Source: Caenimonas soli (GTDB taxonomy: Bacteria > Pseudomonadota > Gammaproteobacteria > Burkholderiales > Burkholderiaceae_C). Taken from it: a DNA stretch of 64,000 nucleotides. Position 1 is the first letter of the stretch, and each line of letters begins with the position of its first letter. The translations under genes and the position numbers were made by a program. The stretch spans positions 1 to 64,000 of the forward strand of contig NZ_JABJVV010000001.1 in NCBI RefSeq assembly GCF_013155545.1. Reading direction: 5' to 3'. Of this stretch, positions 2,926 through 47,706 are shown piece after piece. The notes below the pieces were generated by a model. That model made no database searches, had not been told where the DNA came from, and saw nothing but the letters and a program-made list of their open reading frames with translations.

Positions 2926-3080
2926 GCAGACAGCCGTCAGGATTAGGTGGCACAATCCGGGTCGCAACCAAGGCCCCTTCCAGCCCCACAGTCGCATCCG
3001 CCATCCGGTTCAGCCGTGTCGCGGAAGGTTTCCTAAACCAGCTAAATGTCTCCTGCAGGGGGACGGAAAGTAGCGCAAGC

Positions 3081-37930: not shown

Positions 37931-40036
37931 CTACTGCTGGCGCCGGGGCAGGGCGCGTTTGAGGGCTTGGAGGAACAGCTTGCGCTGCTGGGGGTGATCG
38001 ACGTTGCCCGCGATCGCCTCGATGAAATCCTTGAAGGTGCCGGCGCGGCCCGTTTCCTTGCGGATCAGCATCTTGGCCATGGGGCCGATGAACTTGCTGA
38101 GCGTCTGCTCGATGACGGTCAATTCGTCCGCGGCGACCTCGAGGAGGCGGCCCCCGGTACGGCTGGAAATCGACGGCTTGTTCAAGCTGCCGGAAGATTT
38201 GCTCACGGGCAGGCTTTGGCTGGATTGGCTTTGCGTGCCGAGGACGAAAGCTTCGCGGGCCTTCGGCTCCTGGATCGACGGCGCCAGCGCTTCGCGCAGG
38301 GCCTGAATGGTCGGCGCCAGGGGCTGTGCCTTGCGCACCAGCACCCGCGCCAGTGGGCCGATGTTGCGGGCGAGATCCATCTCGACCTCGTGCACTTCGT
38401 CCGGCTCCAGCGCCCTGATGCTCTTGACCGGCAGCGTCTGCGTGTAGCCGGTGGACGGGCCTTCGCGACGCGTGTTGCCACCCCGCTGGTTGGCCACGGC
38501 GTACACCTCGTGCAGGCGGCCGTGCTTGTCTTCGTATTGGCCCAGGTACTGGAACAGGTCGGCGGTGTCGTCGGTGATGCGCGAGATCACGTCGTAGTAC
38601 GAGCGAGAGACCAGCACCTGGTTGCCCTGGGCGAAGTCCATCACGCGCTGCGCCACATTGATGCCGTCGCCCACCACGTTCACGCGGTCGTTGATGTCGG
38701 AAATGACGCGCACAGGCCCCATGTGCAGGCCGATACGCGCGGACAGCAACCTGCCATAGCGCTGGCCCAACAGATCGCGCAGCAGCATGGCGGAGTGCAG
38801 GGCCTCTTCCGGGTCGCCCATGAAGCAGATGGCCGCGCCGTCGCCGGTGTCTATGGAAATCCGCGTGTCCTCGGGGACGCTTTTGAGCGCCTTGGCGATC
38901 AACTCGTTGAACAACTTCTTGAGCGTCACCTGGTCATCGACGGAGCGCACCGAGTAGCCCACCAGGTCCAGGAACATGATGGTGCACAGCAGGTTGCGAC
39001 GTTGTGAGCTGGTGGGCCCGGATGTGGCGGTGCCGGTGCTAGGCACGGAAGCGGCCTGGCCCGCAGCGGTGATGGCGGGCCGGTCGGGCTGCTGCTGGGG
39101 CTGCGACTGCGCGGCGTCGGACTTTTCCGAGCCCTGGATCGCGGCCCTGAACAGGGCCAGGGTCTGCGGCCGGCGGCTTTCGTCCGGGTGCATCGCCCAT
39201 TCGATCGCATCGAGCAAGGTGGCGCCGTACACGCTGACCTCGGCCAGGCTGGAAGCCGGCAGCATGGTGTCGTTCTTCACGCGGGCCGCCGATTCGACCG
39301 GCTTCTTGCCCGTGGTCATCCAGTACATCACCGCGCCGAGCGAGTAGATATCGGTCCACGGGCCCTGGTTGCCCTGCGAATGGTATTGCTCGAAAGGGGC
39401 GAAGCCGGGGCTGACGATGTTGGTCATGTCCCGGTCGACCGTGACGCGGCGGGCCGCGCCGAAATCGAGCAGCACCGGCGTGCCGTCGGCGCGCACGTAG
39501 ATGTTGTCTGGCTTGATGTCGCGATGCAGGAAACCCGTCTTGTGGACGGCCTCCAGGCCATCGAGCACCGGATAGACGATGGACAGCAGGGCGCGCCGCG
39601 ACAGCGGTGCGTTCTGCGGCACCCAGCGCTTGAGCGACAGGCCCGACTCGTACTCCATCACGATGTAGGCGGTGCCGTTCTCGCGGAAGTAGCGCAGCAC
39701 CCGCACGATGTTGGGGTGGCGGAAGGTGGCCAGCGCCCGCGCTTCGTCGAGGAAGCGCTCCAGGCCCCAGTCGTACTGTTCCTGGTGCTCGGGCTTGGCG
39801 CCGCGCACCTGCACTTCCTGGTTGGGGCCGCGCGTGACCAGGTCGCTGGGGAAGTATTCCTTGATGGCGACGGGCAGCTGCAGGTTGCTGTCGCGGGCGA
39901 GGTAGGTGATGCCGAAGCCGCCGCCGCCCAGCGGCCGCTCGATGTTGTATTCGTTGATACGGTAGCCGGCAGGCAAGCAAGCGGCGTCCGCCGGCGGCGC
40001 CGTCGGTGCTTTGGGCGTGACTGCTGCGTCAGCCAC
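37931..40036 (-). CDS. Hanks-type Ser/Thr kinase fused to class III cyclase domain and duplicated C-terminal motif
   Basis: A 701-residue cytoplasmic signalling protein. The kinase domain (about 25-300) is complete: G-loop LGGGGFGITYLARD, Lys59 in VAIKE, HRDIKPDN at 171-178, DFG at 191-193, and the PGFAPFEQY activation segment. A Gln/Pro linker leads to a class III nucleotidyl cyclase homology domain (346-515). It has metal ligands Asp357 and Asp399 and transition-state residues Asn460 and Arg464, but Ile395 and Asn453 occupy the positions that normally choose the base. Two 49-residue copies of a motif around IGPLARVLVRK/IGPMAKMLIRK follow (550-598, 641-689). It lies four bases after a heme-c HAMP sensor gene and is surely co-transcribed. 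No membrane span is visible. Confidence 0.9.
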   Translation of the reverse strand: MADAAVTPKAPTAPPADAACLPAGYRINEYNIERPLGGGGFGITYLARDSNLQLPVAIKEYFPSDLVTRGPNQEVQVRGAKPEHQEQYDWGLERFLDEARALATFRHPNIVRVLRYFRENGTAYIVMEYESGLSLKRWVPQNAPLSRRALLSIVYPVLDGLEAVHKTGFLHRDIKPDNIYVRADGTPVLLDFGAARRVTVDRDMTNIVSPGFAPFEQYHSQGNQGPWTDIYSLGAVMYWMTTGKKPVESAARVKNDTMLPASSLAEVSVYGATLLDAIEWAMHPDESRRPQTLALFRAAIQGSEKSDAAQSQPQQQPDRPAITAAGQAASVPSTGTATSGPTSSQRRNLLCTIMFLDLVGYSVRSVDDQVTLKKLFNELIAKALKSVPEDTRISIDTGDGAAICFMGDPEEALHSAMLLRDLLGQRYGRLLSARIGLHMGPVRVISDINDRVNVVGDGINVAQRVMDFAQGNQVLVSRSYYDVISRITDDTADLFQYLGQYEDKHGRLHEVYAVANQRGGNTRREGPSTGYTQTLPVKSIRALEPDEVHEVEMDLARNIGPLARVLVRKAQPLAPTIQALREALAPSIQEPKAREAFVLGTQSQSSQSLPVSKSSGSLNKPSISSRTGGRLLEVAADELTVIEQTLSKFIGPMAKMLIRKETGRAGTFKDFIEAIAGNVDHPQQRKLFLQALKRALPRRQQ

Positions 40037-40040
40037 AGGC

Positions 40041-40916
40041 CTACTGGTCGCCGATCATCTGCATGGCCTTCTCGAGGCTGCGGCGCATGCGATTGAACGA
40101 GCTGCCCAGGACGGCGACCTCGTCACCGCCTTTTTCGTTGAACTCGGGCTCGCCGAATTCGCCGGTGCTGATCTTGTCGGCCGACTCCGACATCTTGCGG
40201 ATGGGACGCACGATCAGCCACGACAGCATGATGTTCAGCACGATGAAGACCGCGACGAATACCGCAGCCAGCGAAGCCATGAAGGTGGTGAAGGCGCGGT
40301 CGGCGTTGCGTAGCGGCACTTCCATCGGCACCGTGACCACTTGGGCGCCAACGATCTCGTTGTGCTTCCAGCCGAAGCCATTGGCCTCGCCGTAGATCTT
40401 GAGCATGCTGGGCGGCGCGGCTGCGGGGGTGCTGTGGCACTGCAGGCAGGCCGGGTTGCTGATCTGGATCGGGTGGGCGATGAAAAGGCTGCGGCCGGTG
40501 GACGAGGCGCGCTCTGCCACCACTTCCTTCACGTCCGCGTAGTTGCGGAACCGGTTGACCACGTCGGCCTCCCAGTCCAGGGTGCGGTTGCGCGGGTTGG
40601 TGGGGTTGAGCGTGGCCTCTTTGTAGCTGTATTCCTTGTACTTCTTGCGCAGGTGGTTGGTGGCCTCGGTGGCGGCGAAGGCCGGCACCGTTTGCGGCAG
40701 GAACACTTCGTCCATCATCTGGATCAGGTGCGGGCGGACTTGTTCGACGGTGTAGGTGCGCACCGAAATGGCGGCTTCCATCATCAGGCGGGCATCGCGA
40801 ATCACTTCTTCGCGGGCGTTTTCTTGCAAAAGTTGGCGCGAAACCAGGCCGGCCGCGGCAAAGCCGGCCAAGAAGACGACAATCAACACAAGATTGAACT
40901 TAAGCCTGAGCCCCAT
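40041..40916 (-). CDS. Membrane sensor with DUF3365-like periplasmic domain (CxxCH) and HAMP
   Basis: A 291-residue two-span membrane protein: span 1 at about 7-27, a periplasmic domain of about 180 residues, span 2 at about 210-236, then a HAMP domain (VRPIRKMSESADKISTGEFGEPEF...GDEVAVLGSSFNRM). The periplasmic part resembles the DUF3365/Tll0287 fold and contains Cys157-Leu-Gln-Cys160-His161, a c-type heme attachment site. No kinase or cyclase domain is attached, so output probably passes to the kinase-cyclase encoded four bases downstream. ATG 40916 is chosen because AGGAGAG lies just upstream; an in-frame start at 40961 is less likely. Confidence 0.88.
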   Translation of the reverse strand: MGLRLKFNLVLIVVFLAGFAAAGLVSRQLLQENAREEVIRDARLMMEAAISVRTYTVEQVRPHLIQMMDEVFLPQTVPAFAATEATNHLRKKYKEYSYKEATLNPTNPRNRTLDWEADVVNRFRNYADVKEVVAERASSTGRSLFIAHPIQISNPACLQCHSTPAAAPPSMLKIYGEANGFGWKHNEIVGAQVVTVPMEVPLRNADRAFTTFMASLAAVFVAVFIVLNIMLSWLIVRPIRKMSESADKISTGEFGEPEFNEKGGDEVAVLGSSFNRMRRSLEKAMQMIGDQ

Positions 40917-43291: not shown

Positions 43292-43516
43292 GGCGTGATT
43301 ATCGGGATGCGTCTGGCACAGGCCGAGCTGTTGCCCATCGCTTGCCAGGGACCCCCGTGAGGCCGCGGCACACCTGCGCCACGCCAAAGGCCTTGTCCTC
43401 ATTGGGGGAAAATCCCTGTCGAGGTGTCCATTCAGATTGGGCCGTGACACTTGCTATCGCCCCCGGCGGCTCGCAGAATCCATTCTGGTACGGCACACTG
43501 CCTACGATTGCACGTC

Positions 43517-45211
43517 ATGAGCCCCGATCCTGTCCCTCCCCTCGCGCTGGTGGTGGACGACGAGCCTGTGACCCGCCTCCTGGTGAAGCGCGCACTGGAA
43601 AGCTTCGGCTGCGCTCCGGTCCTGGAGGCTGCCGACGGCGTCGCGGCGCAGCAGGTCCTGCGCGAGCGCCCGGACGTCGCCCTGGTGCTCACGGACATCA
43701 TGATGCCGCGGATGGACGGGCTGGAACTGCTGAGCTGGGGACGCGAGGCGGTGCCAGGCGCCACGTGGATCGTCCTCTCCGGGCTGGAAACCTTCGACTC
43801 GGCGGTGGCTGCGATCCGGCTGGGGGCATTCGACTTCCTGCCAAAGTCGCCGCGGAAGGAAGAGATGGAGGTCGCGGTTCGCAACGCGCTCGAGCGGCGG
43901 CGGCTCGTCGCGGAGCGCGAGCGGCTGCACGGGGAACTTCAGCGCAAGGTGCGCGAGCTCGAGGAAACCTCCGAGCTGCTGCGTCGCGACCTGGAGCGAG
44001 CGGAGGTGATCCAGCGCGCGCTGCTGCCGCGCAGTCCACCATCCCTGGAAGGGTACTGCATCCAAGCCGTCTACCGGCCGGGGCAGCATGTGGGCGGCGA
44101 CCTCTATGACGTAATCCGGCTGGGCGAGCGGTACCTGGCCTTCTACCTGGCCGACGCCACGGGCCACGGCGTCACTTCGGCGATGCTTTCGGTGCTGTTC
44201 AAGCAGCGGCTGGTCCTGGTGGATCCCGAGACGGACCTCGTGTTGCCGCCGGCGACGGTGCTGGAGACGGTGAACCGCTCGATCTGCCAGTCGCACGCCG
44301 CGCCCGGATTGTTCCTGACGGCCGTCCTGGGCCTGCTGGACACGGCGGACGCAAGCCTCACGCTGGCATCCGCGGGCCACCCGCCCGTGCTGCACCTGTG
44401 CGAAAACGGGGAAACGCGCCTCATCCGCCGCACGGGGCCCGCGCTCGGGCTCGCGCCGGACGCGCAGTTCCGGCAGGAGCGTCTGCAGATCGCGGCGGGC
44501 GACCGGATCTTCCTCTACACCGACGGGCTGCTTCCCTCGGGTTCGGAGCAGGACCTGCAACGATTGGAGTGGGTGCTCTCGCGACCACTCTCCAGCGCGC
44601 AGGAAGTGATGGCGCAGCTTGACCTTGGCGCGGCGGCCGGCGCAGAGCGTGATGACGTGACCATCCTCCTCATCGACGCGCATGCAGGGATCTCCTGGTT
44701 CGACAACGGCGCCGCGCTTCCCGCTGCTGCCGTGCCAGCCGTGGCGCCACCGGGTGGCGAGGTGGTGTTCTACGGCGAGACGGAGAACGCCGCGTATCTC
44801 GCGCTGCGGCGCCGGGCCACATGGATGCACTGCGATGCCTTCCATGAAACGGCGCAGGCCGTGCTGGACGAGGGGCACGCGCTGGTGCTGGACCTCTCCG
44901 ACTGCGAATATCTGGACAGCACCTTCCTCGGCACCGTGCACGAGCTGGTAGCCCGGGGCGGAGTGGTACTGACGGGGGTGACGCCGGGAGTGCGTGCGCT
45001 GTTCGAGGAACTGAGCATGGAGCAGGTGCTGGCCTGCATCCGCGAGGACGTTCCCGCCCCGCGCCAACTCTATGCGCTGGGCTCCGGGTCCGATCCGGCG
45101 GCGGTGCGTAAGCGGATCCTGCATGCGCACGAAGCGCTTTCGGCGCTGAGCGAGAGCAACCGCGAGGAATTCCGCGGGGTGGTGGAGTCACTTCGCGGCG
45201 ACACGGGTTGA
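43517..45211 (+). CDS. Receiver-PP2C (SpoIIE) phosphatase-STAS fusion
   Basis: A 564-residue regulator with three parts. The receiver (about 8-122) has phosphoacceptor Asp60 in VLTDIMMPRMDG and Lys110. A charged coiled coil (about 125-165) leads to an RsbU/SpoIIE-type PP2C phosphatase (about 170-390; GGDLYDVI, LADATGHG, LYTDGL, ERDDVT). A STAS domain (about 412-515) carries the regulatory serine Ser468 in EYLDSTFLG, the site kinases phosphorylate in anti-sigma antagonists. The plan implies a partner switch controlled by two-component input, with the phosphatase possibly acting on its own STAS domain. The hybrid kinase gene follows directly. Confidence 0.9.
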   Translation: MSPDPVPPLALVVDDEPVTRLLVKRALESFGCAPVLEAADGVAAQQVLRERPDVALVLTDIMMPRMDGLELLSWGREAVPGATWIVLSGLETFDSAVAAIRLGAFDFLPKSPRKEEMEVAVRNALERRRLVAERERLHGELQRKVRELEETSELLRRDLERAEVIQRALLPRSPPSLEGYCIQAVYRPGQHVGGDLYDVIRLGERYLAFYLADATGHGVTSAMLSVLFKQRLVLVDPETDLVLPPATVLETVNRSICQSHAAPGLFLTAVLGLLDTADASLTLASAGHPPVLHLCENGETRLIRRTGPALGLAPDAQFRQERLQIAAGDRIFLYTDGLLPSGSEQDLQRLEWVLSRPLSSAQEVMAQLDLGAAAGAERDDVTILLIDAHAGISWFDNGAALPAAAVPAVAPPGGEVVFYGETENAAYLALRRRATWMHCDAFHETAQAVLDEGHALVLDLSDCEYLDSTFLGTVHELVARGGVVLTGVTPGVRALFEELSMEQVLACIREDVPAPRQLYALGSGSDPAAVRKRILHAHEALSALSESNREEFRGVVESLRGDTG

Positions 45212-45237
45212 TCCGCGCTCGCTCACCAAAGGCCGAC

Positions 45238-47706
45238 ATGAACGCCGCCATTCGACTGCTGCATCTGGAAGACGACCCGCTCGACGCCGAACGCCTGCGG
45301 CTCAGGTTGCAGGCCGACCACCCTGCCTGCGAGATCGTGTGGGTGCGCGGCAAGGGGGATTTCGAATCCAGCCTGCAAGGGCAAGCCTTCGATGTGGTGA
45401 TATGCAACTATGAACTGCCGGGCTACAGCGGCCTGCAGGCGTTGCGCCATGTCCGCGAGCAGCAGCCGGAGCTTCCGGTGATCATCAGTTCCTCAGGCCT
45501 GAGGAGTGAGGAAGACGCGGTGGAGTGCATGAAGGCTGGCGCCACCGATTACGTCCTCAAGCAGCGGCCGTGGCGGCTGGGCGCCCAGGTTCGGCGAGCG
45601 CTGATCGAGAAAGAGGAGCGCGCGGCGCTGCGCCGTGCGGAAGAAGACCTTCGCGCCTTGAACGCCGAGCTGGAGGAGCGCGTGCGATCGCGCACCGCCG
45701 AACTCGAAACGGCCAACAGCTTCCTGAATTCGGTGATCCAGCACATCCCGCACATGGTCATCGTAAAGAACGCCAGCGACCTGACGTTCGTTCGCGTCAA
45801 TCGCGGCTACGAGCAAACGTCGGGGCGCAGCGCGCAGGAGGTGATCGGCAAGACCGCTTACGACATCCACCCCAGGAAGGAAGAGGCCGCCTTCTACACA
45901 GCGAGCGACAAGCAAGCCCTGGCGCTGGGCCGCGAGTTGGACGTCCCGGCGGCGACGCTGCACCCGCCCGGTGGGGGCGAGCGCATCCTGCACATGAAGA
46001 AAATCCCCATCTTCGATGACGCCGGACAGCCGCGGTACGTGCTGACCATCGCGGAGGACGTGACGGAGAAGGTGAAAAAGGAGCGTGAGGTCGAGCGGCT
46101 GAATGCGACCCTGGCGCAGCGCACCGCGGATGTCGAAGCGGCCAATCGCGCCAAGAGCACCTTCCTGGCCACCATGAGCCACGAGATCAGGACACCCATG
46201 AACGGCATGCTCGGCATGCTGGAACTCCTGAGCCTGACCGACCTGGATGCGGAGCAGCGTGAGACCCTCGGGATCGTGCGCGCATCGAGCAAGTCGCTGC
46301 TGCGCATCATCGACGACATCCTCGACTTCTCGAAGATCGAGGCCGGCAAACTGGAGGTCCGCCCCGATGTGGTCTCCATCAGGCAGGTCATCGAGGAGGT
46401 GCAGAGCATCTACCTGGGCAACGCCAGCAGCAAGGGCCTGATCGTCCGGCGGATCGTCGATCCTCGCATCAGCCCGGCGCTTTGGGTCGATCCGGTGCGG
46501 CTGCGCCAGATCCTCAACAACTTCGTCAGCAACGCGATCAAGTTCACCCCTATAGGCTCGATCGAGATCAGTGCGCAATGGGTGGGGCGGGCTGACGGAC
46601 AGGAGAGCCTGCGCTTCGTGGTGAAGGACACCGGCATCGGCATCTCGCAGGAGGACCAGCAGCGGCTGTTCCAGCCTTTCAGCCAGGCGCTCGGTGACCG
46701 GAACTCGGGCGGCGCGGGATTGGGGTTGGTCATCTCCCGCCAGCTGGCGCAGATGATGGGCGGCACCATCTCCCTGGAGAGCGAGCCTGGCAAGGGCACG
46801 ACCCTGATCCTGAGCCTGTCGCTGCCGATCGTCGAGGCGCTGCCAGACAGCGGCGCCCAAAGCGCGCGCGCGCTGCCGGCGGCCATCTCCGCGCGCCGCA
46901 CGGCTCCCAGCATCGCGCAGGCGGAGACGGAAGGGACGCTCGTGCTGCTGGTGGATGACCACCCGGTCAACCGCATGCTGCTCCTGCGCCAGGTGCAAAC
47001 GCTGGGCTATGCCGCCCAGACCGCCGAACACGGCATCGAGGCCCTGGAGAAGTGGAAGTCGGGCCGCTTCGGGCTGGTGATCACCGACTGCCACATGCCG
47101 CAGATGGATGGCTACGAACTGGCGCGCAGCGTCCGCAGCCTCGAATCCGCCAAGGACCTCAAGCGCGTTCCGATCATTGCCTGCACCGCCAACGCGCTGC
47201 AGGGAGAGGCCGAGGCATGCCGGGCCGCCGGCATGGACGACTACCTGGTCAAGCCGGTCGAGTTGTCGCAGCTCACCGAAAAGCTCGATCAGTGGCTGCC
47301 GATTCCGCCGGAGCCCGGCGCGCCTGCCGCGGCCGCCGGTCCAAGCGAGGACGCCGAGCCCTCCGTCACCCCGATCGATCAGGCGTTTCTGATGAAGAAC
47401 TGCGGCGGTTACGCAGCGGTCGTGAACGAGGTCCTGGCAGCCTTCCGGAACACGTGCGAGGAGGACGCGGCCGTCCTCAAAGACGCGCTGGAAGCCGGCG
47501 ACGTTGCCCGGGTGACGCAGTCCGCCCACCGCATGGCGGGCGCCAGCAAGATGATCGGCGCGCTCGGTTTTGCTGCTGCCTGCGAGCACATCGACCGCGC
47601 CAGCCGCGCCGGCGACTGGAAGGCGATCCTGAGCGGCATGCCCGCGTTCGAGCGGGAACGGATGCGCCTGGCTGCCTATTTCAAGTCTCGCGAGGAAACA
47701 GCTTGA
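45238..47706 (+). CDS. Hybrid sensor histidine kinase (degenerate REC-PAS-HisKA-HATPase-REC-HPt)
   Basis: An 822-residue soluble kinase. Residues 5-120 form a receiver in which Asn57 (VVICNYELPG) replaces the phosphoacceptor Asp. A coiled coil (about 125-160) and PAS domain (about 160-285) follow, then HisKA with His315 (MSHEIRTPMNG), an HATPase with NAIKF, DTGIGIS and GGAGLGL, a second receiver with Asp617 (VITDCHMPQMDG), and an HPt domain with His764 (SAHRMAGAS). A full internal phosphorelay is possible through H315-D617-H764. The likely output is the receiver of the preceding protein. ATG 45238 is chosen; a TTG at 45208 overlapping the previous stop would add ten residues. Confidence 0.9.
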   Translation: MNAAIRLLHLEDDPLDAERLRLRLQADHPACEIVWVRGKGDFESSLQGQAFDVVICNYELPGYSGLQALRHVREQQPELPVIISSSGLRSEEDAVECMKAGATDYVLKQRPWRLGAQVRRALIEKEERAALRRAEEDLRALNAELEERVRSRTAELETANSFLNSVIQHIPHMVIVKNASDLTFVRVNRGYEQTSGRSAQEVIGKTAYDIHPRKEEAAFYTASDKQALALGRELDVPAATLHPPGGGERILHMKKIPIFDDAGQPRYVLTIAEDVTEKVKKEREVERLNATLAQRTADVEAANRAKSTFLATMSHEIRTPMNGMLGMLELLSLTDLDAEQRETLGIVRASSKSLLRIIDDILDFSKIEAGKLEVRPDVVSIRQVIEEVQSIYLGNASSKGLIVRRIVDPRISPALWVDPVRLRQILNNFVSNAIKFTPIGSIEISAQWVGRADGQESLRFVVKDTGIGISQEDQQRLFQPFSQALGDRNSGGAGLGLVISRQLAQMMGGTISLESEPGKGTTLILSLSLPIVEALPDSGAQSARALPAAISARRTAPSIAQAETEGTLVLLVDDHPVNRMLLLRQVQTLGYAAQTAEHGIEALEKWKSGRFGLVITDCHMPQMDGYELARSVRSLESAKDLKRVPIIACTANALQGEAEACRAAGMDDYLVKPVELSQLTEKLDQWLPIPPEPGAPAAAAGPSEDAEPSVTPIDQAFLMKNCGGYAAVVNEVLAAFRNTCEEDAAVLKDALEAGDVARVTQSAHRMAGASKMIGALGFAAACEHIDRASRAGDWKAILSGMPAFERERMRLAAYFKSREETA

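Follow-up and report, generated by a model that had tools for sequence, protein, structure and literature searches.

A receptor gene ending at HAMP lies beside a soluble kinase gene

The two genes described here lie in the first 64,000 nucleotides of contig NZ_JABJVV010000001.1 from Caenimonas soli; we refer to this whole stretch as the window. One encodes a membrane receptor with a periplasmic haem-type domain and a cytosolic HAMP domain, and the other encodes an effector in which a Ser/Thr kinase domain and a cyclase-like domain are followed by two copies of a repeat that we call CR. Their features are listed here with the evidence for each in parentheses.

40041..40916, minus strand: receptor gene, 291 aa, with a first transmembrane helix (TM1), periplasmic Tll0287-like (sCache_heme) domain, second transmembrane helix (TM2), HAMP and stop (open reading frame, Pfam, model, hydropathy)
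40326..40826, minus strand: Tll0287-like domain, residues 31-197 (PF11845, E=4.9e-40; model matches 5b82)
40434..40448, minus strand: CLQCH c-haem attachment motif, residues 157-161 (sequence; alignment of relatives)
40071..40226, minus strand: HAMP domain, residues 231-282 (PF00672, E=4.7e-13)
40062..40091, minus strand: conserved tail RMRRSLEKAM, residues 276-285, putative docking site for CR (motif R[LM]..S...A[MLIFV])
40037..40040, no strand: intergenic gap of four bases (coordinates of both genes)
37931..40036, minus strand: effector gene, 701 aa, GTG start, with kinase, cyclase-like domain, CR1 and CR2 (open reading frame, Pfam, repeat search)
39161..39949, minus strand: Hanks-type Ser/Thr kinase domain, residues 30-292 (Pkinase PF00069, E=1e-36)
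38462..39007, minus strand: class III cyclase-like domain, residues 344-525 (PF00211; phmmer to solved cyclases, E=7.9e-6)
38225..38413, minus strand: CR1, first STAC-like repeat (repeat search; AlphaFold2 model; Foldseek)
37946..38137, minus strand: CR2, second STAC-like repeat (repeat search; VIA)

The first-pass annotation of this DNA had described a two-span receptor with a CxxCH site at residues 157-161 and a HAMP domain but no output domain, followed four bases on by a soluble Hanks kinase with a cyclase homology domain and a duplicated C-terminal motif. Pfam and hydropathy agree with the description of the receptor, and Pfam and a repeat search with that of the effector. The receptor starts with an ATG whose first base is position 40916. 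Its PF11845 match in the Pfam scan spans the whole profile (1-144 of 144), and a hydropathy scan finds two hydrophobic stretches, in windows starting at 1-12 and 207-222; no stretch as strong as these two was found in the effector. HAMP is the sole cytosolic part of the receptor: nine residues follow the Pfam match, and the scan reports no family C-terminal to it. The AlphaFold2 model of the receptor (mean pLDDT 90.3) matches Tll0287 (5b82) at Foldseek rank 2 (E=3.9e-7, TM score by target 0.75) and also, more weakly, the HAMP domain of Af1503. Cys157 and Cys160 are its only cysteines, with none outside CxxCH, and together with His161 they are invariant across an alignment of 55 receptors. The receptor is probably a c-haem sensor. 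At the pair itself an Rfam scan found no match, and a search for regulatory sites found no promoter-like sites and four terminator-like sites, not above the 3.1 found in shuffled sequences.

Receptor and CR genes are conserved together

The annotation had read the pair as a sensor and a kinase that signal in trans from separate genes. In related genomes the pair is kept, so that the annotation's own computational ground for refutation, a lack of co-conservation, does not apply. We inspected, as named loci, the best 80 of 565 confirmed receptor relatives, hence the closer ones, among which the closest is a Ramlibacter record with 94% identity. A CR gene adjoins the receptor in 76 of the 78 named loci that could be assessed. 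The automated call on all 80 gave an adjacent CR in 73 and none in 7; L061, L072 and L084 were counted as adjacent from their coordinates, and L066 and L073, which lie at contig ends, were set aside.

The two genes also occur together across three samples of genomes, with Fisher p-values that ignore relatedness: in the genus sample of 37 genomes, both were found in 16, the receptor only in 0, CR only in 1 and neither in 20 (p = 1.3e-9); in the order sample of 120 genomes the corresponding counts were 14, 2, 1 and 103 (p = 2.6e-15); and in the phylum sample of 397 genomes they were 6, 1, 1 and 389 (p = 9.3e-12). The E-value limits varied by search (1e-5, 1e-20 or 1e-30 for the receptor, 1e-4 for CR), and the receptor and CR searches were taken to cover the same samples (397 and 120 genomes) given that their settings, sizes and handles agree. 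Some individual calls should be read with their circumstances: in the order sample, G046 was counted as having both genes with the receptor and CR gene on separate contigs, both at ends, and G454 was counted likewise with its receptor's kinase cut by a contig end and a CR match that belongs to another receptor; in the genus sample, the match in G031 spans receptor residues 200-290 only.

Starting from CR, 15 of the 18 such genes in the order sample adjoin a receptor or HAMP gene, the others being G046:C54 (at a contig start), G046:C48 and G492:C35. Most genomes with only one of the two genes fit the rule that CR goes with a receptor ending at HAMP: G049 and G461 have GGDEF fused in cis to the receptor and no CR, and G473 and G423 have CR beside a Cache-type HAMP-only receptor of another kind. 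G002 breaks the rule, with a cyclase-like CR-CR gene and no receptor in 11.5 kb. The window genome itself holds a second pair, in which a receptor (C49:176932-177792) is accompanied by a kinase-CR-CR gene that lacks the cyclase domain. Nine plasmid records also matched, of which eight were examined (H5 was left out); the five proteobacterial relatives carry a receptor and a kinase-CR-CR gene, and the three cyanobacterial ones have no CR match.

The kinase residues are conserved as well. The effector has all three of the catalytic Lys (K59), the HRD Asp (D173) and the DFG Asp (D191), and the equivalents of these are kept in 64 (with two gaps), 66 and 66 of 66 partner kinases, respectively. Because the catalytic residues are kept and the receptor and CR genes co-occur across genomes, the pair is unlikely to be a chance neighbourhood; conservation of the pair supports signalling in trans between separate genes.

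Outputs and sensors vary around HAMP and CR

What the receptor is paired with needs restating, however. The two genes are indeed separate and co-conserved, as proposed, but the constant feature of the partner is CR, the STAC-like repeat, and not the Ser/Thr kinase, given that CR is also found with cyclase, TIR and MscS-like domains and alone. A kinase is present in most CR genes of the named loci. In 8 of the 80, the partner is a cyclase-CR protein without a kinase; in L112 it has no kinase or cyclase match; and in L098 and L113 a single receptor is flanked by kinase-CR upstream and cyclase-CR downstream. Outside the named loci, the receptor at L041 lies beside a TIR-CR protein (PF13676, E=4.1e-20). 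At L028:1340-2824 (G010), the gene after a HAMP-only receptor encodes a membrane protein that combines an MscS beta domain with a CR repeat, and at L168 a haem-less receptor adjoins a CR-CR protein that lacks any named domain. The genome of L105 has a PP2C-CR gene preceded by a HEAT-like repeat/kinase gene, with no HAMP match nearby (L203:623-4548, G535).

The sensor changes too. CR genes lie beside HAMP-only receptors with Cache/dCache sensors (L163, L164 and L165) and beside other HAMP-only receptors that lack the haem domain (L204, L205 and L206). A Tll0287-like receptor with CATCY replacing CxxCH is still partnered by kinase-CR (L167:5650-6747, G347), and receptor relatives whose periplasmic domain is shortened or missing stand beside CR at L168 and L276. 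In contrast, no CR match lies in the loci of five receptors that carry their output in cis; the outputs are three GGDEF domains and one cNMP-binding domain by Pfam, and one histidine kinase by reading (L291). Within the window genome we examined 10 of 11 HAMP frames, and the only ones that end at HAMP are the two receptors paired with CR. As both the output and the sensor vary, and receptors with an output in cis go without CR, the pairing follows the HAMP-only end rather than the haem or the kinase.

Several further arrangements were seen along the way. A TIR protein with one CR repeat follows a HAMP-only haem receptor at L170:6067-7617 (G439), as at L041, and a cyclase-FHA protein comes directly after a receptor/kinase-CR-CR pair at L087:8309-9205. 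The CR proteins at L163, L164, L165, L204, L205 and L206 are short and have a DUF4388-like N-terminus, with a weak Pfam match in L164 only and the others recognised by eye. The window genome also has two very long frames with many HAMP copies in tandem (G000:C4:157764-161507 and G000:C1:143319-145685; 2380 and 2058 aa).

CR-paired receptors share a C-terminal tail

The end of the HAMP domain is itself conserved in the receptors that adjoin CR. The motif R[LM]..S...A[MLIFV] is found in 79 of the 80 named receptors, 4 to 13 residues before the end, and in all eight other HAMP receptors beside CR. It is absent from the 13 receptors compared that carry their output in cis, three of which are GGDEF fusions without a Pfam HAMP match. 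L107, the sole named receptor without the motif, is in the one genome lacking a CR match among the 21 searched. The HAMP domain of Af1503 has the same tail in alignments with the window receptor.

A probable resemblance of CR repeats to STAC

No Pfam or NCBIfam family covers CR in the partner proteins that we scanned. Among 194 CR instances, its GPxA-type core has G in all 194, A in 181 and P in 179. As modelled by AlphaFold2, CR1-CR2 is all-helical (mean pLDDT 83.9, pTM 0.43). When this model was compared by Foldseek with 350,542 PDB chains, the first and second ranks went to two chains of 5a1q, the structure of Af1502 (probability 0.99 and 0.97; TM score by target 0.64 and 0.60; root-mean-square deviation 2.4 and 2.5); STAC had been proposed as a candidate before this comparison. 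By VIA, model residues 101-162 (62 residues) align to 5a1q with Z 5.5. In addition, a sub-threshold match of the CR profile from alignment A5 pairs profile positions 11-32 with residues 10-31 of 5a1q, in register. We consider it quite probable that CR is truly homologous to STAC, and call the repeats STAC-like. Identification of CR as STAC from sequence alone was rejected, as the profile matches are not significant. A search with SLC5 (PF00474) for CbrA-type STAC regions gave no frame longer than 818 aa among the matches listed.

Enzyme domains of the effector

The best solved relative of the kinase domain is PpkA (5hnv, E=4.8e-61). In the cyclase-like domain, Guanylate_cyc (PF00211) matches weakly, over residues 419-485 (E=6.6e-6; 26.3 bits, cut-off 21.9). 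D357 and D399, which we take to be the metal-binding Asp residues, and N460 and R464, which we take to be the transition-state residues, are all present in the effector; their equivalents are kept in 31, 27, 25 and 33 of 38 relatives, a partial erosion. At what is presumably the position of the base-contact Lys the effector has Ile395, and 34 of the 38 relatives have L, V or I there. It also has Asn453, versus Asp in the solved cyclases found by phmmer. The base-specifying residues of neither cyclase type are present, and we rejected the label of adenylyl or guanylyl cyclase; with such unusual base-contact residues, neither cAMP nor cGMP can be taken for granted as a product. Kinase activity is the safer prediction of the two. 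A role in anti-phage defence was also considered and rejected: the effector's PADLOC and NCBIfam matches are to the kinase domain and fall below the NCBIfam cut-offs.

A proposed split signalling module and its alternatives

Taken together, these observations suggest a one-component module split over two genes, a reading that we think reasonably probable: a haem/NO (nitric oxide) receptor whose HAMP tail would act through STAC-like repeats on a kinase/cyclase in trans. The receptor would carry a covalent c-type haem in its periplasmic Cache-type domain, as PF11845, the CxxCH motif and a preprint on relatives indicate, and HAMP makes it a probable homodimer. The periplasmic domain, and hence the HAMP bundle, could respond to a redox change or to a haem ligand, for which NO is the most likely candidate. 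The conserved C-terminal tail of HAMP may then dock to CR1 and CR2 of the kinase-cyclase, as their genomic co-variation suggests, and docking, or a change in docking, would switch Ser/Thr phosphorylation and perhaps the cyclase output. CR would be the adaptor in this arrangement, being fused to different effectors across bacteria and paired with HAMP-only receptors that have different sensors.

As to the input, the annotation had offered redox or gas sensing. A guide is a Pseudomonas azotoformans protein with two transmembrane spans, HAMP and sCache_heme (WP_033902098), which is reported to carry haem c and to bind NO with a dissociation rate constant (koff) of 6.25e-4 per s (PMC12889525, the February 2026 preprint that describes the haem Cache family). 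According to that preprint, this HAMP-bearing protein forms no stable O2 complex and autoxidises rapidly, and a stand-alone sCache_heme member has an axial Cys and redox-like behaviour, whereas the HAMP-bearing, NO-binding member lacks the axial Cys (PMC12889525). By analogy, NO or the haem redox state is a more likely input for the window receptor than oxygen (PMC12889525); NO is our leading guess, followed by redox state. The preprint text does not contain the words serine, STAC or operon, and the receptor's partner seems undescribed there.

Several observations weigh against the split module or against its link with STAC. The receptors at L105 and L107 have no adjacent CR gene (2 of 78 named loci), and no CR lies within the stretch fetched around L282, a HAMP-only receptor from a cyanobacterium. 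Removal of STAC from CbrA or CrbS in Pseudomonas fluorescens is reported to make no obvious difference to growth (PMC5715377). The tail motif was defined after the tails had been seen. The CR model has three helices per repeat versus four in STAC, the Foldseek E-values of the 5a1q matches are 0.61 and 0.91, and in VIA unrelated bundles score Z 5.7 and 5.1, level with 5a1q. The CR profile from alignment A2 did not match 5a1q, and that from A5 did so at E=1.4, which is not significant. Finally, five CR genes have no HAMP match in the fetched flanks (L166, L169, L203, L207 and L275). These five genes would fit a reading in which CR serves only the effector itself, for dimerisation or autoregulation, and the receptor acts in the same pathway via a third component; helical repeats of this size often serve self-association. 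We judge this unlikely, given that CR tracks HAMP-only receptors whatever the output or sensor, and a role internal to an enzyme leaves unexplained the CR-only proteins beside receptors (L168). The lack of a significant sequence link between CR and STAC, like the equal VIA scores of unrelated bundles, would suit a different alternative, in which CR is unrelated to STAC and the helical likeness arose by convergence; a role as HAMP adaptor could still hold in that case. Set against it are the GPxxA-type motif that the two have in common, the same type of genomic partner, the top Foldseek rank and the in-register profile match, and convergence seems to us rather doubtful.

Two further alternatives concern what enters and what leaves the pathway. 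The receptor could be a haem redox sensor or an electron carrier and not an NO sensor, which would leave the wiring in trans unchanged. This is a possibility that we take seriously without expecting it: the redox-like behaviour of the stand-alone member and the rapid autoxidation of the HAMP-bearing one favour it, but the stand-alone member has an axial Cys, which the NO-binding member with HAMP lacks (PMC12889525). The window receptor likewise has no Cys outside CxxCH. At the output end, the pair could regulate a type VI secretion system (T6SS) in the manner of PpkA, placed here under a haem receptor. PpkA is the closest solved kinase, four of the five examined proteobacterial plasmid relatives adjoin T6SS genes, and in G547, G548, G264 and G193 the distance between VipB and the CR gene is about 1.4 to 21 kb. 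In the window genome, however, VipB (PF05943) has no matches, as in 11 others of the 24 genomes searched, and we noticed no T6SS genes near the pair there. We therefore regard such a role as very improbable for the window pair and rejected it on the absence of VipB, keeping it as a lead for relatives; with a genome lacking VipB, the substrates of the window kinase would lie elsewhere.

Neighbouring observations

Relatives of the pair adjoin tagF, tssM, tssH, tssB/C/E/F and VipB at L278, L279, L281 and L284 (Caballeronia, Skermanella and Paraburkholderia plasmids) and at G547:C14 and G548:C12. The PpkA kinase acts in type VI secretion (PMC3953482), and the gene neighbourhoods suggest haem-sensor control of T6SS in those relatives. 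Elsewhere in the window, the only Rfam match is a SucA RNA motif (RF01070, 66.2 bits) at 2992-3075 on the plus strand. By eye, the plus-strand frames at 43451-45211 and 45208-47706 look like a response regulator carrying a phosphatase-like domain and a hybrid histidine kinase, respectively.

Discussion

The annotation had treated a receptor with HAMP and no output as unusual, and for this part there is a precedent. Af1503 of Archaeoglobus fulgidus has HAMP as its only cytosolic part, and its neighbour gene encodes Af1502, a STAC-type protein of 68 residues that has an LGPx(x)A motif (PMC4834066; PDB 5A1Q). Af1503 has served as a structural model for HAMP signalling without a recognisable effector module (PMC4834066). 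The window pair resembles this arrangement: in both, a receptor ending at HAMP neighbours a gene for a small helical domain of the GPxxA type, and HAMP plus tail of Af1503 is the window receptor's best solved match. In contrast to stand-alone, archaeal Af1502, the window CR is bacterial, occurs twice and is joined to a kinase and a cyclase-like domain, and the window receptor differs from Af1503 in having a c-haem Cache domain as its sensor.

In the SLC5-STAC kinases CbrA and CrbS, STAC likewise separates a membrane part from a signalling output, but these are single chains with a transporter as membrane part and a histidine kinase as output (PMC5715377, PMC13022988). In the window pair, by comparison, two proteins divide the roles of receptor and effector, and CR follows the enzyme domains at the C-terminus. 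WP_033902098 has the same order of transmembrane span, Tll0287-like domain, transmembrane span and HAMP, and no axial Cys; haem and NO binding were measured there (PMC12889525), whereas for the window protein they are predictions. PpkA has the closest solved kinase domain, and some relatives of the pair are found in T6SS clusters, but the window kinase differs in its fusion to a cyclase-like domain and CR repeats and in a genome without VipB.

Within the open-licence PMC literature we found no paper that joins a STAC domain with Ser/Thr and HAMP, none on a HAMP domain, a Ser/Thr kinase and c-type heme in trans, and none on 'orphan HAMP'. The primary STAC paper (Korycinski 2015), known to us through citations, may already cover bacterial HAMP-only receptors or further STAC fusions. 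The role of STAC was called unknown, elusive or unclear in three reports of 2017, 2021 and 2026 (PMC5715377, PMC7918813, PMC13022988).

Beyond what the annotation had seen, there appears to be a STAC-like adaptor that lets HAMP-only receptors use interchangeable soluble effectors. In this the module extends Af1503/Af1502 and the SLC5-STAC kinases, and the bacterial loci join the questions of Af1503's effector and of STAC's role, with HAMP-only receptors, here with a probable NO-responsive haem input, beside STAC-like repeats on assayable enzymes. Because such enzymes can be assayed, a single two-gene system could serve to test the role of STAC. The pair also offers a candidate output for the sCache_heme proteins with two transmembrane spans and HAMP that are newly described as binding NO, and some relatives point to haem control of type VI secretion. 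In its broadest form, to which we give about equal weight for and against, the proposal is that STAC-like repeats are a general plug-in adaptor through which effectors (Ser/Thr kinase, cyclase, TIR, PP2C, MscS-like and others) are driven in trans by tail-bearing HAMP-only receptors. If true, this would supply STAC with a function and Af1503 with the output route it lacks, and transmembrane signalling in bacteria, and probably archaea, would include a modular form in which receptor and soluble effector are separate and interchangeable.

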